Shown here in pieces: positions 9,277 through 34,910 of a DNA stretch of 38,271 nt. The translations under genes were made by a program, and so were the position numbers. The notes beneath the pieces were generated by a model. It was given only the letters and a program-made list of their open reading frames with translations. It had not been told where the DNA came from and made no database searches. How positions within the stretch are numbered: position 1 is the first letter of the stretch; the number at the start of each line of letters is the position of its first letter. Source of the DNA: Nodosilinea foveolarum (lineage in GTDB: Bacteria; Cyanobacteriota; Cyanobacteriia; Phormidesmidales; Phormidesmidaceae); assembly GCA_003242035.1 (NCBI GenBank), contig QBMC01000023.1:1-38271 (forward strand), read 5' to 3'.

Positions 9277-10251
9277 ATGGTTTTTTCTAAAGCAACTTCA
9301 TTTAAGATCATTAGAAAGAAAATTGAATTTAAAATTTCGGTGTATCTTCTCGCATTGCGTTATAAGCAGTGGACTAAAAATTTAATTGTCTTCGCCGCGC
9401 CGCTTTTCGCCTTTGACATTCGCTTTTCATCCCTCTTAGCGAGCCTGCTAGCGTTTGCCTTGTTCTGTTTCACCTCTAGCAGCTTCTATTTAATCAACGA
9501 CCTGTTAGATGTAGAATCAGACCGCCGTCACCCGGTTAAGTGCAAACGGCCAATTGCGGCTGGACTGGTGAGTATTCCAGAAGCCATTTTAATGGCAGCT
9601 ATCCTGCTGACGACAGCAATGGTAGTCGGATGGTGGAAATCGCCGGGGCTGGGTGCCGCTATTTTGGGATATGCCCTTCTGCAGGTTGCGTATAACCTAT
9701 CGCTCAAGCACAGAGTAATTGTAGATGTGGTGGCAATTGCCACAGGCTTCATCTTGCGAGCACTAGGAGGGGCGGCTGCGACAGGCATTGTTCTATCGAA
9801 CTGGTTTTTGCTATGTACAGCTATGCTGGCCTTATTTTTGGGAATAGAAAAGCGTAAGGCGGAATTGCGTCTCTCAGAAATTAGAGGGGAAAAGTCTCGA
9901 AAGGTACTACGCCGCTACTCTCCTGCCTTGTTAATGAGAATGGAGAGTGTCGTGACAAACGGCACTATTCTCACCTACGCACTTTGGAGCTCTGGGCCTG
10001 CTGTAGACGGTGCCTCAACGTCTTGGATGATGCTGACACTCCCTTTTGTTTTACATGGTATCTTTCGCTATCAATTGCTGAGCGATCCAAGTGAAATAGC
10101 GCGACGAAATCCAGGTATAGAGCAAGGGGGGAAGACGGAGCGTCCTGAGGAAATACTCATTAAGGACAGGCCGCTTTTATTGACTGTATTAGGGTGGGTT
10201 GGCGTAACTTTCGTCATTCTGTTTCTCAATGATCGGCAGCTAATCGGTTGA
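9277..10251 (+). CDS. UbiA-family polyprenyl-phosphate phosphoribosyltransferase (DPPR synthase-like)
   Basis: This is an integral membrane enzyme of 324 aa. By homology it transfers 5-phosphoribose from PRPP to a polyprenyl phosphate, as mycobacterial Rv3806c does. The first aspartate motif is NDLLDVESDRRHP (residues 74-86), followed by KCKRPIAAGLVS. The second is YNLSLKHRVIVD (139-150), followed by LRALGGAAATGIVLSNWFLL and EKRKAEL. The RPIAAG and LSxWFLL blocks match what I recall of the DPPR synthases rather than quinone or heme prenyltransferases. About eight hydrophobic segments are visible. It heads a set with a HAD phosphatase, a small flippase-like transporter and a GT-C-like protein, which fits a lipid-linked pentose pathway. 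A prenyltransferase acting on another substrate is the main alternative. Confidence 0.87.
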   Translation: MVFSKATSFKIIRKKIEFKISVYLLALRYKQWTKNLIVFAAPLFAFDIRFSSLLASLLAFALFCFTSSSFYLINDLLDVESDRRHPVKCKRPIAAGLVSIPEAILMAAILLTTAMVVGWWKSPGLGAAILGYALLQVAYNLSLKHRVIVDVVAIATGFILRALGGAAATGIVLSNWFLLCTAMLALFLGIEKRKAELRLSEIRGEKSRKVLRRYSPALLMRMESVVTNGTILTYALWSSGPAVDGASTSWMMLTLPFVLHGIFRYQLLSDPSEIARRNPGIEQGGKTERPEEILIKDRPLLLTVLGWVGVTFVILFLNDRQLIG

Positions 10252-10367
10252 AGGGAAGCAAGCTCACTCTAGAGATTGGCATTGCTTCATGATAAAGACG
10301 CTGCCATGCATAAAGTTTAACCTTGTCAATAAGTCGTCTCTACACCGTCATTCGCTTACTTGGAAAA

Positions 10368-10955
10368 ATGAAAAGAAAATTTATAGAACCGCATCTCAAT
10401 GGCGGTAGTCAAGAGGCTACTGTTTCAAGCCGCTATCGTTTTCCCAAGCAAATCCACTCACTCGCTTCGGTCAATCTTGAGTACCTGATCGATTCGAGGA
10501 TTCAAGGCATTATTCTTGATCTTGACAACACAATTGTCTCAGAAGATGATCGCTATTTGTCTCGCCATGCGATCGCTTGGATAGCCCAAGCTCAGCAGCA
10601 GGGGCTAAAGCTGTTTATCCTTTCAAATGGCAAGCGTCGGTATAGAGTTGACTATTGGTCAGAGCGTTTAAACATACCTGCTATCAGTCCTGCTAAAAAA
10701 CCTTTTCCGTCTGCATTTCGGAGGGCTATAAAGCATATGCAAGTTGATCCTAAACGAGTGGTTGTGATTGGAGACAGTCGCCATACGGACATTTTAGGCG
10801 CTTGGCTAGTCGGCTGTCCTAACATTCAAGTAGCGTCCTTACCGCATCCACCTCGATGGTGGGAAAGCCTACTCGGAAAATACGTTCAAATCCCTCACGT
10901 AGATAGGGAAGCGCTAGAAGACTTTCAATCCTCGCATTGCTACAATACCCCCTGA
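10368..10955 (+). CDS. YqeG-family HAD-IIIA phosphatase
   Basis: This is a soluble HAD phosphatase of about 195 aa. Counting from the ATG at 10368, motif I is IILDLDNT (about residues 48-55, nucleophile Asp in DLD), motif II is FILSNGK, motif III lysine is in SPAKKP, and motif IV is VVVIGDSRHTDILG. The frame extends to a TTG at 10323, but that has no ribosome site, while the ATG has GGA just upstream. YqeG proteins are widespread and their substrate is generally not known. Here the gene lies 116 nt after the DPPR synthase-like gene and 6 nt before the small transporter. I infer that it could remove the 5-phosphate from polyprenyl-phosphoryl-phosphoribose. It could also simply be the housekeeping copy. 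Confidence 0.85.
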   Translation: MKRKFIEPHLNGGSQEATVSSRYRFPKQIHSLASVNLEYLIDSRIQGIILDLDNTIVSEDDRYLSRHAIAWIAQAQQQGLKLFILSNGKRRYRVDYWSERLNIPAISPAKKPFPSAFRRAIKHMQVDPKRVVVIGDSRHTDILGAWLVGCPNIQVASLPHPPRWWESLLGKYVQIPHVDREALEDFQSSHCYNTP

Positions 10956-10961
10956 TTTTTT

Positions 10962-11303
10962 ATGTTAGCTGCTCTTTTACCCGGTTTATTGATACTGGTG
11001 ACTGTTGGACTCAATACTCTAGCGCAGGCTCTGCTGAAGCTAGGCTCGGGTCAAAGTCCCTTGAATCTCTATTTGTTCAGTGGGGTTCTCGTCTATGGTT
11101 TTAGCACTATCTTCTATATTTTGGTGCTCAGCAGATTTGATCTATCGACTGCATATCCGATCATTATCGGGCTGACTGTGCTCGCAACTACGATGACGGG
11201 CGCATTTCTTTTAGGCGAAAAAGTGGCTATGACTCACTGGTTAGGCATTGGATTGATGTTGAGCGGAATTTCTACAATCGCCCTTGGTAAGCCCATGCAA
11301 TAA
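10962..11303 (+). CDS. Small EmrE/ArnE-like membrane transporter, possible lipid-sugar flippase subunit
   Basis: A 113-aa protein with four membrane helices, the size of an SMR/ArnE protein. Helix 1 (LLILVTVGLNTLAQALLKLG) has no glutamate in place of EmrE Glu14, so proton-coupled drug export is unlikely. Helix 3 ends in STAYPIIIGLTVLATTMTG, and the LGEKVAMTHWLGIGLMLSG block of the last helices is typical of the DMT superfamily. ArnE/ArnF of the same family flip undecaprenyl-phosphate-aminoarabinose for the GT-C enzyme ArnT. Six bases separate it from the HAD phosphatase, implying translational coupling, and 75 bases from the GT-C-like gene. I infer that it flips the polyprenyl-phosphate pentose. 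This is not shown by sequence alone. Confidence 0.8.
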   Translation: MLAALLPGLLILVTVGLNTLAQALLKLGSGQSPLNLYLFSGVLVYGFSTIFYILVLSRFDLSTAYPIIIGLTVLATTMTGAFLLGEKVAMTHWLGIGLMLSGISTIALGKPMQ

Positions 11304-11378
11304 GGGCGATTGAGCCGCTTAAAAAACTCGTATCTCTTTTTAAGCTCCGATTAAAGTAATCCTTATAGAGACGGCAAC

Positions 11379-14300
11379 ATGATAACTCGTATAAAAGAGT
11401 CCACTAAACTCACTCACGAGCCCAACACCCCTCTCCAGATGTTTTTAAGTTGGCTGCGTCAGCGCTGGCCGGATATTTTTATCCTCGCGACGCTATTTGC
11501 GGCAGCCATTTTTTTAGTGTATCAGGGGTCTCAGCTAATCAACGCGGCCATCCTGGATAGACAAGCCCTCGATGTATGGTTTGATGCTGATCTATATCGT
11601 GTCTTCAGCAATATGACCGAGCGTAGTAGCGATCACTATCGAACTCGAGTACATCCGATTTTCTCGCTGATTGCATTTCCACCTGTTCATCTTCTTGTGC
11701 AAGGACTCAACTTAACGCCCAGCGCTGCTGTTAGAGCCGTGATGGCAGTGGTTGCTGCAATTTGGTTAGCGGCGTTGTTTGCTCTGCTCAGAATTATCGG
11801 CTGCCGCCGAGCAGATGCCATTTTATTCAGTCTGCTTGCTACTGTCAGCGCCTCCGCTATTTTCTGGTTTATTGTGCCAGAAACCTACCAGTTTGGATCT
11901 CTATCTATTCTTTTGGCGCTTGGCTTTGTTGGGTTGACGGAGCATCGTCAGTTTTCATCGTTCTGGTATATCGGCGTTAGTGCTCTCACGCTCAGCATTA
12001 CAACGACAAACTGGATGGTTGGAATTTTACTTACGGTTGTCAATTTCTCAAAGCAAAAGGCATTGCAAATTACGATCAACGCCTTTTGTTTAGTCGTACT
12101 GCTATGGGGAGTACAGAAAGCGCTCTTTTCTAGCGCTGCTTTCTTTTTGGGTGTTAGAGAAGAGAAAGCGTACATGCCCCCATTTGAGCTGACTGGGCCG
12201 ATACATGTATTCAAGGCATTTGTTGCTCATACGATAGTCATGCCAGCCATTAATTTGGCTGAAAATACGAAAGTGTTATCGCGCTGGCCTATGCTATCTG
12301 TTCAGGATTCTATTCCAGGATCGGGCAGTCTGTGGGGTGCGATCGCCGTTGTCTCATGGACTGTCCTACTGGGTTTAGGAATTTGGGGCTTCTTCTCTTA
12401 CCAGCGGCATACAAAGCTGCGGATAGTCCTAGCCCTAACGCTGCTCGGACAGCTTTTACTTCACTCCATTTACGGTACTGAAACCTTTCTCTATTCTCTA
12501 CATTTTTTACCCTTACTCATTCCGCTAGCCGCATTTAGTGTGTTCACGCGGGCTCGCCCTATCGCCCTATTACTTGCGGTCATATTGATCGTCACCGCAG
12601 GTACTAACAATCTAGCTCAGCTAGGCAAAGCTGCCCAGATAGTCAACGCTAGTGCGCCTCAGCGCTACCAGGTTCTCCACCAAATGCAACAACGGCCTCA
12701 AGATCCCTGGCCACGAGGAACAGGGCATGTCGTGCTAGCTGAGCCTGGTAGTCTAGAAGTCAACAAAGCTTACTACGAACCGGCCGGCAGCTTTAGTCCT
12801 GCTGTCGGCAGCTTTGGCGTCTCCCTATGGCTTACTGATGAATCGGGAAATCTTCAGCTCACTAGCGATCGCATTCCAGAAGATGAAATCAGCCAGCAGC
12901 TCGTCTGGAAAGAAGATAGCGCTGTTCCTGGGGTCATAGCCGATACGCCGTATTATCAAACAGAGTGGTTCATGGACGACTCCCAAGATTGGAGACTCAA
13001 GCTGACGCCCAAACAGGAAGCAGCAGAGCGATCGCAAACGCTATCACCTCAACTCGGTATCCGCAGCGTTGGGCCAGCGGGTAGCCCAATTAACGCTTTG
13101 AACTGGGATGGCCAACAGCTATTAATTAATCAGCGTTGGAGCGTAACCCCTACGCCGCCACCGGCCCACGTCTCGCTAGGAGAAGAAGGTCGGAATAACT
13201 GGGTCAATAAAACCTCCGATCTTTCTAGCTGGGAAGGCGAAAGCGGGTGGGGGTACGCCCGGTTAGCACTAGCTGAAAGCACCAACTGGAGTTTTACCCT
13301 CCACGACTTGGAGCAAGATTCATCATCATTCGCACCATCCGAGATCAGCACCGCAGATACGCGCATAACGGTTGACATTAACCTGCCCGATCCGGAATTT
13401 ACCGATAGCCTAAACGCTCAGGTCGCTCATTTGATGATGGGACTAGTCGGTAGCGAAACCCGTCCTGGAGAGCCAACCAACTATCCTTTAGCTTGGCAAA
13501 GAGACGGTGCTTACACAGTCGTCTCCCTGGCGCGAGCCGGAAAACTGCAAGAAGCCAAGGTGCTGTCTGCCGATTTTGCTGAAAATGATTTCTTCGGCGG
13601 CTTCGGCGCTGAATCCGATGCACCAGGTCTCTCTATTTGGGCCTTAGAAGAAGTTGCAACCCGTCTTAAACAGCCGACATACGACCAATACATCTGGCCG
13701 CACGTCCAGAGAAAAGCTGACTTCATCTTAGAGATGATGACCACAGATAGCCCCATTTACAAGCCTTACGTCGGCCCAGTGGTTCCGGAGCACGAAGAGA
13801 AACCCGAAGCCTATCTGGTCGCAGAACCGCCGAAAGACGGCCTGATAGTCGGTCGGATGGACTGGCAGCGGCCTCTTCTCTTTGTTAATGCCGTAAGTTA
13901 CCGGGGGCTATTAAACGCGGCTACCCTAGCAGATCGAATAAACCAGCCTGACTCAGCTCAGCGCTGGCGCGAGGCGGCTACAAAGTTGCAGAAAGCTTGG
14001 GAAAATGCGTTCATCAACTCCGCCGAAGCGGACAACAACCGAACCTATATCAGCGCGCTGTGGCCAACTTGGATTGGTGAATCTAAAAAAGAAGAGATCG
14101 CTCAGCAGTTAGAAAGTCGGTGGGAAGAAAGACGCGATGCATCAGGCAACTTCAAAGAAACGCCTCTATGGACTTACTTCGATCTTGCAGAAGCGCATCA
14201 GTGGCTGTTTGTTAATCGCCCTGAACGCCTCTGGACGACTTTACAGTGGTTTTGGAAGCATCAGTCGTCTCCTGGGCTATATACCTGGTGGGAGGGAGAC

Positions 14301-14684
14301 AGCGAAGAAAACACGTTTAATCGCTGGGAGAATGTTCGGGGCTGGGTTACCCCGCCCAACGTAACGCCTCATTATTGGACCTCTGCCGAAATGCTGTTAA
14401 TGCAGCTAGACATGCTGGCATACAGCGATTTATCAGCAGATCAGCCAACTGTGGTTATTGGTGCTGGCATCCCGCAGAACTGGCTAGAGAAATCTATGAG
14501 CGTAAGTGGATTATCCATGCCCAATGGCAGAATAGACTGGCGCTGGGACGGCCAGAAGATGTGGGTAACCATTTCTGGCAAAAGCTCTGACGAAAAAACA
14601 AAAGTACAGCTCGGCTCAGGATTTCCGGCTCAAACTCCTCTTGATGTAGCCTATCGCGCACTCGAAAATGTCAGTTTCAAATAG
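11379..14684 (+). CDS. GT-C-like membrane protein fused to a six-hairpin glycosidase-like domain
   Basis: An unusual 1101-aa fusion. Residues 32-410 form about ten membrane helices in GT-C style. After helix 1 comes an outward loop with FDADLYRVF (Asp69 and Asp71) and then RTRVHPIFSLIAFP (His92-Pro93), the type of acidic/HP motif used by lipid-phosphate-sugar-dependent transferases. From about 440 to 620 there is a beta-rich linker. From about 625 on there is an alpha/alpha-barrel glycosidase-like region with NYPLAWQRDGAYTVVSLARA, APGLSIWALEEVATRL, DWQRPLLFVNAVSYRGLLNA, PLWTYFDLAEAHQWLF and PHYWTSAEMLLMQLDMLAY. That region would lie outside the cytoplasmic membrane. The gene ends the UbiA/HAD/SMR set. 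I infer that the membrane half transfers a lipid-linked sugar and the outer half trims or remodels glycan. Family numbers for either half are uncertain. Confidence 0.8.
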   Translation: MITRIKESTKLTHEPNTPLQMFLSWLRQRWPDIFILATLFAAAIFLVYQGSQLINAAILDRQALDVWFDADLYRVFSNMTERSSDHYRTRVHPIFSLIAFPPVHLLVQGLNLTPSAAVRAVMAVVAAIWLAALFALLRIIGCRRADAILFSLLATVSASAIFWFIVPETYQFGSLSILLALGFVGLTEHRQFSSFWYIGVSALTLSITTTNWMVGILLTVVNFSKQKALQITINAFCLVVLLWGVQKALFSSAAFFLGVREEKAYMPPFELTGPIHVFKAFVAHTIVMPAINLAENTKVLSRWPMLSVQDSIPGSGSLWGAIAVVSWTVLLGLGIWGFFSYQRHTKLRIVLALTLLGQLLLHSIYGTETFLYSLHFLPLLIPLAAFSVFTRARPIALLLAVILIVTAGTNNLAQLGKAAQIVNASAPQRYQVLHQMQQRPQDPWPRGTGHVVLAEPGSLEVNKAYYEPAGSFSPAVGSFGVSLWLTDESGNLQLTSDRIPEDEISQQLVWKEDSAVPGVIADTPYYQTEWFMDDSQDWRLKLTPKQEAAERSQTLSPQLGIRSVGPAGSPINALNWDGQQLLINQRWSVTPTPPPAHVSLGEEGRNNWVNKTSDLSSWEGESGWGYARLALAESTNWSFTLHDLEQDSSSFAPSEISTADTRITVDINLPDPEFTDSLNAQVAHLMMGLVGSETRPGEPTNYPLAWQRDGAYTVVSLARAGKLQEAKVLSADFAENDFFGGFGAESDAPGLSIWALEEVATRLKQPTYDQYIWPHVQRKADFILEMMTTDSPIYKPYVGPVVPEHEEKPEAYLVAEPPKDGLIVGRMDWQRPLLFVNAVSYRGLLNAATLADRINQPDSAQRWREAATKLQKAWENAFINSAEADNNRTYISALWPTWIGESKKEEIAQQLESRWEERRDASGNFKETPLWTYFDLAEAHQWLFVNRPERLWTTLQWFWKHQSSPGLYTWWEGDSEENTFNRWENVRGWVTPPNVTPHYWTSAEMLLMQLDMLAYSDLSADQPTVVIGAGIPQNWLEKSMSVSGLSMPNGRIDWRWDGQKMWVTISGKSSDEKTKVQLGSGFPAQTPLDVAYRALENVSFK

Positions 14685-15337: not shown

Positions 15338-18300
15338 ATGGCTAATTCAAACATTCTACATTTTAACAATTTTCTAGATCAATCTAACCTTTTGCTAAAC
15401 GGCAGCGCGTCCGTCGTCGATGGTCTGTTGCGCCTAACGCCAGATGAAACCTGGCAAGCAGGCAGCGCTTTTCTCAATCAGGCTTTGGCTATTGATACAG
15501 ACACCGACTTCTCGACTCAGTTTCAGTTTGAACTGAGCGGGGGGGACGGTGCCAACGGTGCTGATGGCTTTACCTTTATGCTCAATAGTAGCGGACCGAA
15601 TGCACTAGGGGCTGCTGGCAGTAAGCTGGGCTTCGGCGGCATCTCTCAAAGCTTAGCGATTGAGTTCGACACTTATAACTGGAAAGAGGTCAACGGTAAT
15701 CACGTTGCTCTACTCACAAACGGCAACACGGCTAAACATTTATCTCTCGGCACGCCTGGATTTGACCTTAATGGTAGCGGACTGCTAACGGCCTGGATTG
15801 ACTACAGCGGTCAGAGCGACAGACTCTCTGTTTACGTTTCTAATACTGAAACAAGACCTACAACTGCGCTGTTCGAGCACACCATTGATGTTACCTCGGT
15901 GCTCGGAGAAAGCGTCTATGTTGGTTTTAGCGGCGGCACGGGCGGTCTTACCAACAATCAGGACATCTACAACTGGGAGTTTAGCAGCACTGCCCTTAGC
16001 GGCGAGCACGATCACGGTGGTGGTGATGACGGTGACGGTCAGTTAGGGAACCCTAGCTATCGCGACGAGCTAGTTGTTAGTGGCTTAGTAGCACCTATTT
16101 CAATGGCGGCGTTGCCTGACGGACGTATGCTGATTCTCGAGAAGTTTGGCACCATTCGAATTACCGATCCTCGGACATCAGTACCCATCAGCAGTCCTTT
16201 CTTGACGATTCCTAACGTGGACAGCCAGGGCGAGCGAGGCCTGCTTGATATTACGCTAGACCCAGATTTTGAGAGTAACGGTCACTTTTACGTGCTCTAT
16301 TCTAGTGAGGCAACCAACCGTCTACAGGTTTCTCGCTTTACGGTTGGTCAGGACGGTCATACCGACCACGCCCATGCCTCTACCGAACAGGTAGTTTGGC
16401 AAGACAAGTTTACGTTATCTAGTACGCGAGAATTTCATCAGGGCGGTGGACTTGATTTTGGGCCTGATGGCAAAATTTATGTTTCTTTGGGCGATCGCAA
16501 GCAGCCTAATGCAACGCAAACGCTCGACAACACCGCCGGAAAAATCCTCCGCATTAACAGAGACGGCAGTATTCCAACAGATAATCCGTTCTATGACGGC
16601 AACGGTAGCAACCTAGATGAGATATGGGCCTATGGTAATCGCAATCCGTTCCGGGCCCGCTGGGATGAGCCTACTGGCCGCTTCTTTATTGGCGATGTGG
16701 GCGGTAATGTTCAAGCCGTTGCCCGAGAAGAGATTAATCTAGGCAAAGCAGGCGCTAACTACGGTTGGCCTGGTTATGAAGGCGTCAGCAATCAGCCGGG
16801 GCTAACCGATCCTCTATTTTCCTACGATCACAAAGATGTCGATCCCTTTGGAGGGTCGATTGTGGGTGGCATGGTGTATCGAGGAAACCAGTTCCCTGAA
16901 GCGTTACAAGGGGCCTATTTCTTTGGTGACTTCGTGCAGGGTTGGATTCGCTATCTGCGCTTTGATGAATTCGGTAATATCATTGATGCTGATCCCACAA
17001 CCACCAAAATCGACGCCTACGAACTGACCAGCAGCACAGGCAATATCGGGAATGATTTTGATTCAGGCAATCAGTTTTTGACGGGTAGCTTGGTTGCGTT
17101 GGAAGAAGGCACCGACGGCGCAATTTACTACTTGAATATCTACGAAGGAGAGCTTAAGCGAATTGTCTACGAGTCAGGGGTAGGCAATCGAGCACCGACC
17201 ATTAGTCAAGCCAGCGCGGATGTAACACAAGGTGGCAATCCGTTGACAGTTTCCTTCGCGGCTGTCGCTAGCGATCTAGACAACGATCCGCTGACATATA
17301 CTTGGCTGTTTGGCGACGAGAATCAAGCAACTGGAGCCGATGTCAATCACGTTTACAGCAGTGCAGGCTCCTATAAAGCCACCCTGATGGTGAGTGATGG
17401 GACGACTACGGCTCACTCTACTCCTATTACTATCCATGTTGGCCAGCCGCCCGAAGCCGCAATTTCATCTCATGCAGATGGCTACCTTTTCAGAGCGGGC
17501 GATCGAGTTTCATTTGTGGGTGACGGTAGCGATAGTGATGGCACATTAACTGACGATAGCTATGAGTGGGCAGTTAGATTCATGCATAACGAGCACTTTC
17601 ATCCTGTTATTAGCGATCAAACCGGGAGCACGTTTGTATTCAATATTCCTGATTCTGGCCATAGCTTTGCAGACGAAACGGGTTTCGAGGTTGTACTTAC
17701 CGTAACCGACGCGGATGGCCTTACAGACACAGAGATTATTAAGATTAGACCTGATAAGGTTGATCTGAGCGTTTTAAGCAACCTAGGTGGTGGCGTATCT
17801 TACGTACTTGATGAAGATGAAACGTTCTCCGGTTCATTCACCTACGATACGGCAATCAACTTCAAGCACCAGCTCAAAGCGTCAGAAACTGTTGTTTACG
17901 ATGGCATTCAGTATGCTTTTAACAGCTGGTCAAATGGAGAAACAACGCCTACCATCCAGTTCACTGTTCCAGAGCAGGATTTCAGTCTCACGACGCTCTA
18001 TCAGCCTGTAGAAAACTCTTTCGGATTTTCCTTTACGGATTTTAGCAATGAGTCAGCGCTTACGATGAATGGTTCTGCTAATATTACGGGAGGAATTTTG
18101 CAGCTAACACCGGCTGAAAATTGGCAGAACGGCAGCGTCTTCTACAATCAAGCGATTAGCATTGATTCGGATACTTCTTTCTCTACTGAATTTCAGTTCA
18201 GGCTGAGTGACGGCGATGGTATCACTGGTGCGGACGGGTTTACCTTTATGTTGCAAAGCGACAATCTTAATACTCTTGGCTTGGCAGGCAGTGGATTAGG

Positions 18301-18664
18301 CTACGCTGGCATCTCTCAAAGCCTCGCAGTTGAATTTGACACCTACAGGTGGAGAGAACTGAACGACAATCATGTAGCAGTGCTGAAGAACGGTAACAAG
18401 GATAAGCATTTGGCGATCGCAACGCCTACCGTTGACCTTAATAGTGGCGATATTCTGAATGCCTGGATTGACTACGATGGCGCGGCTAACCAGCTTGAGG
18501 TGTTCGTCTCGGGCAGCAGCGCTAAACCAGGGACATCTTTGTTGAGTTACAGTATCAGTCTAGATGCGGTGCTAGGCTCAACCGCCTATGCAGGCTTTAG
18601 CGGCGGCACTGGGAGACTGACTAATGCCCAAAACATTCTCAATTGGGAAATGAGCGTCGTCTAA
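15338..18664 (+). CDS. Giant lectin / PQQ-type sugar dehydrogenase / PKD / lectin protein
   Basis: An 1108-aa multidomain protein, probably extracellular. Residues 1-215 are an L-type (legume-like) lectin domain with ADGFTFML, SLAIEFDTYNW and FSGGTGGLTN. Residues about 235-610 are a six-bladed glucose/sorbosone dehydrogenase (VAPISMAALPDGRMLILEKF, FHQGGGLDFGPDGKIYVSLG, AYGNRNPFRARWDE, EEINLGKAGANYGWPGYEG), which should bind PQQ and calcium. Residues 615-705 are a PKD repeat (YTWLFGDENQATG, then VNHVYSSAGSYKATL). Two further beta domains follow. Residues 895-1108 are a second lectin domain, roughly half identical to the first by eye. No signal peptide is present and the start is fixed by MANSN after the tandem repeat, so a type I or unknown secretion route is likely. 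Its role may be sugar binding plus aldose oxidation at the cell surface. Confidence 0.85.
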   Translation: MANSNILHFNNFLDQSNLLLNGSASVVDGLLRLTPDETWQAGSAFLNQALAIDTDTDFSTQFQFELSGGDGANGADGFTFMLNSSGPNALGAAGSKLGFGGISQSLAIEFDTYNWKEVNGNHVALLTNGNTAKHLSLGTPGFDLNGSGLLTAWIDYSGQSDRLSVYVSNTETRPTTALFEHTIDVTSVLGESVYVGFSGGTGGLTNNQDIYNWEFSSTALSGEHDHGGGDDGDGQLGNPSYRDELVVSGLVAPISMAALPDGRMLILEKFGTIRITDPRTSVPISSPFLTIPNVDSQGERGLLDITLDPDFESNGHFYVLYSSEATNRLQVSRFTVGQDGHTDHAHASTEQVVWQDKFTLSSTREFHQGGGLDFGPDGKIYVSLGDRKQPNATQTLDNTAGKILRINRDGSIPTDNPFYDGNGSNLDEIWAYGNRNPFRARWDEPTGRFFIGDVGGNVQAVAREEINLGKAGANYGWPGYEGVSNQPGLTDPLFSYDHKDVDPFGGSIVGGMVYRGNQFPEALQGAYFFGDFVQGWIRYLRFDEFGNIIDADPTTTKIDAYELTSSTGNIGNDFDSGNQFLTGSLVALEEGTDGAIYYLNIYEGELKRIVYESGVGNRAPTISQASADVTQGGNPLTVSFAAVASDLDNDPLTYTWLFGDENQATGADVNHVYSSAGSYKATLMVSDGTTTAHSTPITIHVGQPPEAAISSHADGYLFRAGDRVSFVGDGSDSDGTLTDDSYEWAVRFMHNEHFHPVISDQTGSTFVFNIPDSGHSFADETGFEVVLTVTDADGLTDTEIIKIRPDKVDLSVLSNLGGGVSYVLDEDETFSGSFTYDTAINFKHQLKASETVVYDGIQYAFNSWSNGETTPTIQFTVPEQDFSLTTLYQPVENSFGFSFTDFSNESALTMNGSANITGGILQLTPAENWQNGSVFYNQAISIDSDTSFSTEFQFRLSDGDGITGADGFTFMLQSDNLNTLGLAGSGLGYAGISQSLAVEFDTYRWRELNDNHVAVLKNGNKDKHLAIATPTVDLNSGDILNAWIDYDGAANQLEVFVSGSSAKPGTSLLSYSISLDAVLGSTAYAGFSGGTGRLTNAQNILNWEMSVV

Positions 18665-18994: not shown

Positions 18995-20842
18995 ATGAAA
19001 TTGAAACTGCCAAATGCCGTTCGTATCTTAATAAAAACAACCAGCTTTTGGAAGGAAAATCATTTGATTCTACGAGAGTTTAGAAACTTTCGTACAGTAG
19101 CCACTCTAGCTGTTATTTTTGCCCTTATAGCGGCTTTTCTTGAAGGAGTAACGGTTGGGTTTATTGCATCATTTCTACAGGGACTCACCAACCCTGAAGA
19201 GCCACCTATTCAGACTGGGTTGGCTTGGTTTGACACTATAGTCTTAGCTACAGAAGCTTCTGCTGCGAATAGGCTTTATCGCCTTTCTGGGCTGCTGCTA
19301 CTAGGGCTGTGGCTACGAGCGGGATTCGACTACTTAGGTAGCGTATATTCTCAGAAGGCTTCTTTGAGCCTTGTGAATTGTTTGCGCCGCAAGATTTTTG
19401 ACCAGTTAGAAAGCTTCAAGCTCAGCTTTTATTCGACTTTTAGCCCTGGTGCCCTAATTAGCACGGTTAGAGGAGAAGTTCAGCAGGTTCAGAAAGCCTT
19501 TGATCTTCTGTCTACTACCTTTGTGTTTGGTACTAAGGTGGTAGCCTATCTAGTGGCAATGCTGATGCTATCATGGCAGCTTTTCTTAACCTCTATCTTA
19601 GTGTTTGGGTTAATATCTGTAGGCCTTAGCTCTCTCACTGCTCAGGTGAGGGAAGCTAGTTTCGAAGTCCCCAAGGCCAACAAATATTTTACTGACAGTG
19701 CCCTCTCATTTATCAGTGGTATTCGTACAGTTCATGCTTCGGGTACTCAAGAGCTTGAACGGAAGCGCTACTATACTGCTACGCACGATGTATATAGAGC
19801 CGAACTCAACGTTATCAAGCTTTCGGCTTTGGTGAAACCCTTGGTGGAAGGTTCAGGCGCTACCTTGCTAGTAGGTATGGTGGTGGTTTCTTATGGACTG
19901 CTGATTTCTACAGGACGGTTGACAGCGGCTGAACTGCTTACCTTTTTGTTTGTACTAATTCGTACCACGCCGCTAGTCTCAGGACTTAATGGTACGTGGG
20001 TAGGGTTTGTTTCATCTCAGGGTTCTTTAGGAGCCGTATCTGACTTGTTGCGGCGAGATGACAAGCCTTACTTTCAAGATGGATATCAACCTTTTACAGG
20101 CTTACAGCACTCGATTTCTCTTGAGTCAGTTGATTTTTCATATAACTCTGATGAACCTGTGCTGCATGACATTACGCTATCGATTAAGCGAGGAGAAACT
20201 ACGGCTCTAGTCGGAGCTTCTGGAGCAGGCAAAACGACCCTAGCAGATTTGTTACCCCGGTTCTATGACCCAACGCAGGGGCGAATATTGATTGATGGCG
20301 TAGATCTGCGAGATATGGAAATTAACTCGCTGCGGAAAAGAATGGCAGTTGTTAGTCAGGACACATTTATCTTCAATACGACTATCCGAGAAAATATTGT
20401 CTATGGAGTCGAGGACGCTAGCGACGAGGATGTTTATAATGTTGTCCGAATGGCTAATGCACTGGACTTTATTCTTGATATGCCACTAGGATTTGAAACG
20501 GTACTGGGCGATCGCGGTGTTCGGCTATCGGGTGGGCAAAGGCAAAGGATTGCGATCGCGCGTGCCCTATTGCGAAATCCAGACATTCTGATTTTAGATG
20601 AGGCTACGAGCGCCTTAGATTCGGTGACGGAGAAGCTGATTCAGGAGTCTTTGGAGAAGCTGTCGAAGGGGCGGACGGTGATTGCGATCGCCCACCGCTT
20701 AGCAACAATCTCAGGGGCGGACAAAGTGGTAGTGATGGAAGAAGGCCGAATTGTTGAACAGGGAAATTATCAAGACTTGTTAGAAAAGCGCGGCAGGCTT
20801 TGGAAATATCATCGAATGCAGTTTGATACAAGCCGCGTTTAA
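18995..20842 (+). CDS. ABC half-transporter, MsbA/PglK-like exporter
   Basis: A 615-aa homodimeric-type ABC exporter. An N-terminal type IV exporter domain with about six membrane helices spans residues 30-330. The nucleotide-binding domain has Walker A GASGAGKTT (about 406-414), Q-loop VVSQDTF, signature LSGGQRQR (about 510), Walker B ILILDEATSALD (about 530) and the switch histidine in IAIAHRLA. There is no C39 peptidase domain. In Campylobacter, PglK, a similar half-transporter, flips lipid-linked oligosaccharide. Because a Wzy-like polymerase is present but no Wzx is seen, this protein may be the flippase for the repeat unit. Alternatively it could export the unsignalled lectin protein encoded just upstream, although no membrane-fusion partner is encoded here. 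Confidence 0.9.
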   Translation: MKLKLPNAVRILIKTTSFWKENHLILREFRNFRTVATLAVIFALIAAFLEGVTVGFIASFLQGLTNPEEPPIQTGLAWFDTIVLATEASAANRLYRLSGLLLLGLWLRAGFDYLGSVYSQKASLSLVNCLRRKIFDQLESFKLSFYSTFSPGALISTVRGEVQQVQKAFDLLSTTFVFGTKVVAYLVAMLMLSWQLFLTSILVFGLISVGLSSLTAQVREASFEVPKANKYFTDSALSFISGIRTVHASGTQELERKRYYTATHDVYRAELNVIKLSALVKPLVEGSGATLLVGMVVVSYGLLISTGRLTAAELLTFLFVLIRTTPLVSGLNGTWVGFVSSQGSLGAVSDLLRRDDKPYFQDGYQPFTGLQHSISLESVDFSYNSDEPVLHDITLSIKRGETTALVGASGAGKTTLADLLPRFYDPTQGRILIDGVDLRDMEINSLRKRMAVVSQDTFIFNTTIRENIVYGVEDASDEDVYNVVRMANALDFILDMPLGFETVLGDRGVRLSGGQRQRIAIARALLRNPDILILDEATSALDSVTEKLIQESLEKLSKGRTVIAIAHRLATISGADKVVVMEEGRIVEQGNYQDLLEKRGRLWKYHRMQFDTSRV

Positions 20843-33663: not shown

Positions 33664-33990
33664 CTAGGCTTCTTGACCTTCTCTTACCTGCTTTCGCTTT
33701 CGCAACGCAGCTACGCCCATACCGATTAGACCGGGTAGAAGGGCTGGTGTTGGAACAACACCAATGTTGTCAATCTTAAAGCGACCATTTCCACTCTTTT
33801 CCCAGACGACACTTGTAATGCTCCCATTAAGACCTGCAACGAGGTCAACATACGCACTGTCTTCCTGCTTGCCAAAAACGGCGTCGGTAAATGACCGGGT
33901 CTGAGCAACTTCAAGACTATTCAAAAAGCTTACTGTTACCCTATCGGTTGAATCAGTGTAACCCCAGGCAAAACCAAGATATTTAGCTAG
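33664..33990 (-). pseudogene. 5'-truncated PTPA-CTERM surface protein gene
   Basis: The minus-strand frame runs from just after a TAG at 33991-33993 (inside the last codons of the exosortase gene, in another frame) to a TAG at 33664. It encodes about 108 residues. It begins mid-protein (KYLGFAWGYTDSTDRVTVSF), lacks a signal peptide, and ends with VPTPALLPGLIGMGVAALRK, a PTPA-CTERM sorting signal. A TTG at 33924 would give only 86 aa. The absence of a start region and signal peptide means that it cannot be exported as it stands. It is most likely the remaining 3' end of a larger PEP-CTERM-type protein whose front was removed when the exosortase gene came to lie next to it. The intact protein at 36133 has the same tail. 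Confidence 0.7.
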
Positions 33991-34910
33991 CTAGAAGAAT
34001 TGGGCCGTGCCTTAACCAATGCCTCGACGGTGTAATAGTAAAGCGTAAAGAGCACACCAGAGAAAATTTGCCCGCCCCAAAACCCGTGCCAAAAATTAAA
34101 CCACCACGATCCCCAATAGACGTGAGCAATTGTAACCAGCATAAGGCGAGGAATATTAGCAATTAGTGCAATGACAGCCGCCGCCCCAATCAGCCAGATC
34201 ATTTGTTTGCGGGGTTGCCGATACAGCAAACCCATAAAAAGTCCGGCGGCGGCAATCGTAATGGCCATATCTAAGCCATTGCATCCCCAGCCTACCTCTA
34301 CGGCCCCCTCCGGAAATGTAATGAACACTCCCTGCTGTGTGGCTGGAAAGCCAATAGCTTTCATGGCTAGTGTTCCGCCCCAGGCCATCGTTTTTTCTAA
34401 AAATTGTGGCGGTGTGAGAAGTTCCCATAAGAATCGCGATATGAGACCAATGCGAGGATATACCGTCAGCCCAATGAAGAAAGCAGGCATAAAAAAATTG
34501 CTAAAGACGCTCAATCCCCAAGTGCTCATTGCAATACCGACCAAAATGAGCAGCCAGAGTAAAGCCTGAGGCCATAGGGCGTAGCGTAAAAAGGGAAACA
34601 GTCCTACGCCTGCGAAAATGAGTAAATGCCCAATTAGACGATCTTCTTCAGAAGCAGACAGGGTATTTAAGACTTTTCTTTTACTCCAAATTTCTAAGCC
34701 CGCTAAAAATAGCATGCTTAAAATCAAGAACCAGCCAATTTTACCTTTTAGTGCCTGGGGAATAAGATAGCCCAACCACATGGGTAAATAAGCGAGTCCG
34801 GCTACTAACCCTAGTAAGACAATGCGACCGTGATGAGTCTTAACCGCTTTTTGCAATAGCTCAAAGACCGACTTCGACCCAGACTGTTTTAGCCACCGCT
34901 GGAATAGCAT
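33987..34910 (-). CDS. Cyanoexosortase (exosortase/PEP-CTERM-type transpeptidase)
   Basis: A 307-aa polytopic membrane protein with about eight helices. Exosortases cleave PEP-CTERM-type tails and attach the protein to a surface lipid or glycan. The catalytic set is visible: Cys210 in VEVGWGCNGLDM, Arg255 in ANIPRLMLVT and His275 in FNFWHGFWGG. Its targets here are presumably the PTPA-CTERM proteins encoded next to it. By memory of NCBI names it best fits the cyanoexosortase C group, which pairs with an HpsJ-like partner, but I could not check this against A and B. Its stop codon region abuts the truncated PTPA-CTERM gene. A terminator separates it from the HpsJ-like gene upstream, so it should have its own promoter. 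Confidence 0.88.
   Translation of the reverse strand: MLFQRWLKQSGSKSVFELLQKAVKTHHGRIVLLGLVAGLAYLPMWLGYLIPQALKGKIGWFLILSMLFLAGLEIWSKRKVLNTLSASEEDRLIGHLLIFAGVGLFPFLRYALWPQALLWLLILVGIAMSTWGLSVFSNFFMPAFFIGLTVYPRIGLISRFLWELLTPPQFLEKTMAWGGTLAMKAIGFPATQQGVFITFPEGAVEVGWGCNGLDMAITIAAAGLFMGLLYRQPRKQMIWLIGAAAVIALIANIPRLMLVTIAHVYWGSWWFNFWHGFWGGQIFSGVLFTLYYYTVEALVKARPNSSS

Follow-up and report, generated by a model that had tools for sequence, protein, structure and literature searches.

The closest described system to the locus reported here is the "three-component" pentofuranose pathway of Citrobacter youngae O1 and O2, whose enzymes were shown to synthesise polyprenyl-phosphate ribofuranose and to attach the sugar outside the membrane (Kelly et al. 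2024, PMC11127046). Homologues of DprE1/E2 accompany arabinofuranose and an SDR epimerase (ORF13) accompanies xylofuranose in the loci that the study describes, and its ORF15, ORF14, and ORF12 are the precedent for the cassette presented below; cyanobacteria go unmentioned in its main text (PMC11127046). A second relative is the mycobacterial decaprenyl-phosphoryl-arabinose pathway, and the structure of its first enzyme, Rv3806c, has Asn73 and Asp77 binding Mg, Gln135 binding the ribose, and Lys28 binding the 5′-phosphate, with a pyrophosphate site whose residues include Lys87, Arg90, Tyr138, and Lys143 (PMC10994848). The ArnE/ArnF-ArnT system, which handles 4-amino-arabinose on lipid A, likewise combines a small four-helix transporter with a GT-C architecture. 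From the product side, the polysaccharide of Nostoc commune and related Nostoc carries pendant D-ribofuranose (PMC5635763).

The window, by which we mean the whole stretch of 38,271 nucleotides analyzed, corresponds to contig C155 in a draft genome of a cyanobacterium (4.75 Mb, 99.85% complete). Four open reading frames are present on the + strand in the order and places given by an earlier note on this DNA: a predicted UbiA-family polyprenyl-phosphate phosphoribosyltransferase of the Rv3806c/ORF15C type (9277..10251, 324 aa), a HAD phosphatase of the YqeG/TIGR01668 family (10323..10955, 210 aa from a TTG start codon, with an in-frame ATG at 10368), an SMR/ArnE-like four-helix membrane protein that is the putative flippase (10962..11303, 113 aa), and a 1101-aa GT-C/glycosidase-type protein (11379-14684). 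The gap of 6 bp between the HAD and transporter genes was confirmed. A scan of the cassette region for promoters and terminators returned counts not above those of shuffles. A donor synthase, a phosphatase, a small flippase, and a GT-C protein would be encoded together, as in the three-component system, and the arrangement recurs in relatives. The likeness to Citrobacter extends to a UbiA-type polyprenyl phosphoribose synthase, a HAD phosphatase, a four-helix EmrE/ArnE-like transporter, a GT-C protein with an extra extracytoplasmic domain, a setting within a polysaccharide locus, and a change of sugar that would come with the gain of an epimerase.

Given the homologies and the Citrobacter precedent, we consider it probable that the four genes form a synthesise-dephosphorylate-flip-transfer cassette for lipid-linked ribofuranose. 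The UbiA protein would move ribose-5-phosphate from PRPP to polyprenyl phosphate on the cytoplasmic side, a dedicated YqeG-type HAD would remove the 5′-phosphate, the SMR/ArnE-like protein would flip polyprenyl-phosphoryl-ribofuranose outward, and the GT-C protein would transfer ribofuranose to the polysaccharide of the surrounding exopolysaccharide genes, which the glycosidase-type outer domain may bind or trim. We infer the acceptor, the sugar, the order of the second and third steps, and every reaction, the reactions from homology and from the Citrobacter enzymes of Kelly et al. 2024 (PMC11127046). That the set might be a complete route of this kind had been suggested in the earlier note, which did not cite the Citrobacter work, and the grouping of the UbiA protein and the conserved linkage of the genes both speak for it.

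The UbiA protein passes the NCBIfam family model NF008978 (decaprenyl-phosphate phosphoribosyltransferase) with 253.8 bits against a cut-off of 207, and among solved proteins Rv3806c matches it best (PDB 8j8j, E 3.7e-46). The motifs NDLLDVESDRRHP, RPIAAG, and LSNWFLL previously read in it were all found, and the residues K28, N73, D77, K87, R90, Q135, Y138, and K143 of Rv3806c are all kept, as Lys34, Asn74, Asp78, Lys88, Arg91, Gln136, Tyr139, and Lys144, respectively. Across an alignment of 103 loci, K34, N74, D75, D78, D82, K88, R91, Y139, and K144 are invariant and Q136 (Q135 in Rv3806c) is kept in 89, while K208 of Rv3806c is present in the window protein but not conserved in the other loci. 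Five other UbiA genes occur in the host genome, three of which were placed in a tree that left out the two paralogues without the motif used for picking; cassette-type UbiA proteins and Rv3806c split from these three with a support of 0.98, and the three, when aligned, are each missing at least one PRPP-set residue among K28, K87, R90, Q135, and K143. The phylogeny, which could have placed the protein with quinone or chlorophyll prenyltransferases, instead grouped it with Rv3806c and apart from the three paralogues, and we reject a reading as a quinone/chlorophyll prenyltransferase in view of the family score, the residues, and the tree. By homology, then, the window UbiA is a polyprenyl-phosphate phosphoribosyltransferase. 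UbiA phosphoribosyltransferases 43-45% identical were also seen in Melainabacteria/Obscuribacterales (L170-L176), with neither HAD nor SMR nearby. The homologous first enzyme with its conserved PRPP site and the predicted use of a lipid-phosphate pentose by a GT-C protein outside the membrane are features in common with the mycobacterial pathway, from which the cyanobacterial locus differs in that its genome is without the DprE1 of the DprE1/DprE2 pair, in having a HAD in place of Rv3807c and another flippase, and in a GT-C protein that is related by fold only.

For the second gene, the HAD protein passes TIGR01668 (YqeG) with 155.8 bits (cut-off 89.1), and its motif residues D66/D68, S101, K126, and D151/D156 are at least 98% conserved. 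The host genome carries a second YqeG gene (C34:12055), and among 16 genomes examined, two YqeG copies were found in all ten with the UbiA-HAD set and a single copy in all six without an adjacent HAD. Identity to the window HAD is 58-70% for cassette copies elsewhere and 24-33% for other YqeG proteins, and the cassette HADs stand in a clade of their own, apart from housekeeping YqeG (support 0.998). The paired copies and separate clades point to the cassette HAD being a dedicated paralogue, which is proposed to strip the 5′-phosphate from lipid-linked ribose; as the genome's housekeeping YqeG it is ruled out by the second copy and the separate clade. It is an unfused YqeG-type protein, unlike the Citrobacter HAD, which is fused to UbiA. 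YqeG relatives include lipid-phosphate phosphatases, and the UbiA fold is broad, so that the pair might be read as a phosphatidylglycerophosphate-type phosphatase and a quinone, chlorophyll, or lipid prenyltransferase with no pentose pathway at all. We regard this as extremely unlikely, the tests of family and residues having largely refuted it: a separate housekeeping YqeG and five other UbiA genes exist in the genome, and the residue set of the phosphoribosyltransferases, present in the window UbiA, is incomplete in the three aligned paralogues.

The transporter passes PF00893 (SMR) with 29.0 bits (cut-off 23.7), and a sequence search of the PDB gave no match to a solved protein. Its best NCBIfam match is ArnE (E 1.6e-9), with 37.9 bits where the cut-off is 92, which makes it only distantly similar to the ArnE/ArnF proteins of a system whose donor synthesis is also different. 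The glutamate of EmrE is absent, as had been noted: counted from the conserved Lys, Asn18 stands at the place of Glu14 of EmrE, and Asn occupies this place in 96% of the 58 homologues aligned. On family resemblance and linkage, the protein is proposed as an ArnE-like flippase.

The fourth gene had been described as that of a GT-C-like membrane protein, which holds for residues 1-445 (11379..12713) and misses a glycosidase-type extracytoplasmic half, residues 446-1101 (12714..14681). No Pfam family scored above its cut-off for the 1101-aa protein, the GT-C half included, and comparison of the two halves with the PDB by sequence yielded nothing useful, such that their relatives were found by fold comparison only. 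The AlphaFold model of residues 1-445 (pLDDT 85, pTM 0.87) has top Foldseek matches that are nearly all GT-C proteins, among them ALG12, Pmt4, ALG9, ArnT, and AftA, at a TM of about 0.55 and a marginal E of about 1e-3. All 20 sequences compared keep Asp71, which lies in the first outer loop. As modelled, this half is a GT-C fold whose first outer loop bears an acidic residue. The model of residues 446-1101 (pLDDT 73) combines a beta-sandwich with (alpha/alpha)6 helices and matches GH94 phosphorylases (Foldseek E 3.9e-12), then GH78, GH15, and GH63. It shares its fold with the (alpha/alpha)6 enzymes of GH94, GH15, and GH78 and differs from them in its identity of about 10%, its scores below Pfam cut-offs, and its being joined to a GT-C domain; the match to PF00723 (GH15) reaches 17.6 bits (E 0.0019), below the cut-off of 22, and the likeness is one of fold only. 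Of 15 members, 7 have weak Pfam matches to GH15 and 4 have such matches to the rhamnosidase six-hairpin domain. Glu1004, within HYWTxAEM, does not vary, and 14 of 15 members have Asp or Glu at position 828; these two residues may be the base and the acid, respectively, of an inverting glycosidase.

This fusion of a GT-C and a glycosidase-type domain is the most unusual part of the cassette, and it distinguishes the protein from ORF12 of Citrobacter, in which the extra domain is a CBM. Because shorter relatives lack the glycosidase-type half, we take that half to be an accessory of the GT-C part. A bolder reading, which we hold to be possible but doubtful, is that the 1101-aa protein is the founder of a new glycosyltransferase family, its GT-C half adding pentofuranose from a lipid donor to a polymer that its glycosidase-type half cleaves or phosphorolyses; if true, a single chain would couple side-chain addition and polymer editing outside the cyanobacterial membrane.

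The occurrence of the set was surveyed in 242 genomes of the class, 42 of which have a cassette-type UbiA. The earlier note had called for a check of co-occurrence in cyanobacteria, and the UbiA-HAD-SMR linkage proved to be kept in 21 of the 40 UbiA loci read (HAD in 24, SMR in 23), all on the same strand. Among 56 loci of a named cyanobacterial set, which partly overlaps the genomes of the 242-genome set, HAD occurs in 43, SMR in 35, and DprE1 in 6. The recurrence of order and strand in many genomes places the four-gene set far beyond chance, and marks the cassette as real and conserved. The 1101-aa GT-C protein was found in 20 of the 242 genomes, 19 of which also have the UbiA (Fisher p 1e-15), the sole exception being G105; in several genomes it is unlinked to UbiA, on other contigs or far off. 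This distribution bears on whether UbiA, HAD, and SMR make and flip a lipid-linked ribose while the 1101-aa protein is a mere neighbour that uses another lipid-linked sugar. Many UbiA-HAD-SMR loci have no such protein nearby and are followed by other membrane proteins, including an acyltransferase (L042), and G105 has it without the UbiA. In favor of the cassette, GT-C proteins of other families take the place after SMR in further loci, GT87 in L050 and PMT_2 in L150, L158, and L167. We judge a chance neighbour to be quite unlikely given that the 19 genomes pairing the two proteins include several in which they lie at unlinked places, and we retain the GT-C protein as the probable transferase of the cassette.

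The donor sugar is addressed by the distribution of DprE1 and DprE2. Eleven of the 40 UbiA loci have DprE1, ten of these with DprE2, and none has the YqeG HAD or SMR; the exclusion between HAD and DprE1 has a Fisher p of 2e-6, computed on loci that are not phylogenetically independent, and the HAD-type and DprE1 loci of the named set do not overlap either. Fourteen of the 242 genomes have DprE1, all of them with UbiA, and in G015, the only HAD-type genome among them, the gene belongs to a second UbiA locus. A sample of the heterocyst-forming family has UbiA in 16 of 99 genomes and DprE1 in one, adjoining its UbiA. The UbiA proteins of DprE type occupy seven separate positions in the tree, a scatter that suggests repeated module exchange in which the phosphatase and flippase parts would be exchanged together with the epimerase. 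Two locus types emerge, one with YqeG-type HAD and SMR and without DprE, the other with DprE1/DprE2 and a HAD that is joined either to UbiA or to a flippase-like domain; they agree with the pattern of DprE1/E2 or SDR and sugar in PMC11127046 and may supply a rule by which ribose or arabinose can be predicted from sequence.

The host genome holds no DprE1 at E ≤ 1e-40. The best candidate, an FAD oxidase at C224 (L081), was rejected at 89.8 bits against a 500-bit cut-off and about 363-545 bits for genuine DprE1, its best-matching stretch being the N-terminal FAD part. The absence of DprE1 and DprE2 reported for the window is thus borne out, and for DprE1 it extends to the whole genome, from which the likely donor is polyprenyl-phosphoryl-ribofuranose, in keeping with the earlier preference for ribofuranose over arabinofuranose. 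An epimerase encoded elsewhere could still act on polyprenyl-phosphoryl-ribose before flipping, in which case the cassette would add xylofuranose or arabinofuranose: an SDR epimerase gives xylofuranose in Citrobacter O2 (PMC11127046), the host genome has a distant DprE2-like SDR (76 bits), and a close GT-C relative is linked to DprE1 in Leptolyngbya sp. SIO4C5 (G176; L067/L169), a relative of the window's family. That genome has DprE1 and a HAD-flippase fusion beside UbiA, together with a version of the 1101-aa protein that is 53% identical (DprE2 was not recognised in this fragmented genome), so the GT-C type need not be ribose-specific and the same transferase may there serve a different sugar. 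Nevertheless, the host genome is without DprE1, epimerase genes adjoin the UbiA gene in loci that have them, and the window itself yielded no epimerase family; we consider another pentofuranose unlikely and favor ribofuranose.

Two further arrangements were observed among DprE-type loci. The HAD forms one protein with a flippase-like LPG_synthase_TM domain at L147:13996-15591 (PF12710, 134 bits; PF03706, 155 bits), L045:10057-11598, and L067:3047-4672, and in L146, L166, and L169, and such a fusion could be a single dephosphorylate-and-flip protein. In small-genome cyanobacteria (L074, L075, L077-L080), a HAD-UbiA fusion, a GtrA-like protein, DprE1, and DprE2 stand in a row, a predicted compact arabinose-donor operon.

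The route itself is known (PMC11127046), and what is new is its cyanobacterial version with an unfused YqeG-type phosphatase, the exchange with an epimerase module, and the joining of a GT-C protein to a GH94/GH15-like domain; lipid-linked pentofuranose chemistry would thereby extend to cyanobacteria, for which the literature searched held no description. The cassette lies among exopolysaccharide genes, with a Wza homologue, a Wzz-kinase homologue, and a WecG-type transferase upstream and, on the downstream side, an ABC exporter of HepA type and many glycosyltransferases, and hence the acceptor is probably that polysaccharide. Several Nostoc genomes (L138, L150, L155, L167) have the epimerase-free cassette, making it a candidate for the genes behind the ribofuranose side groups of Nostoc polysaccharide, whose genetic origin is therefore directly testable. 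Directly downstream of the cassette, 15338-18664 encodes an 1108-aa protein in which a glucose/sorbosone dehydrogenase domain and a single PKD domain accompany two domains of the legume-lectin type. The HepA-family exporter, of a family named for heterocyst envelope polysaccharide, lies at 18995-20842 (951 bits, cut-off 725) and is followed by the row of glycosyltransferase genes, and an exosortase-family membrane protein (PF09721, 108 bits) is encoded at 33987-34910 on the − strand, at the end of the polysaccharide cluster.
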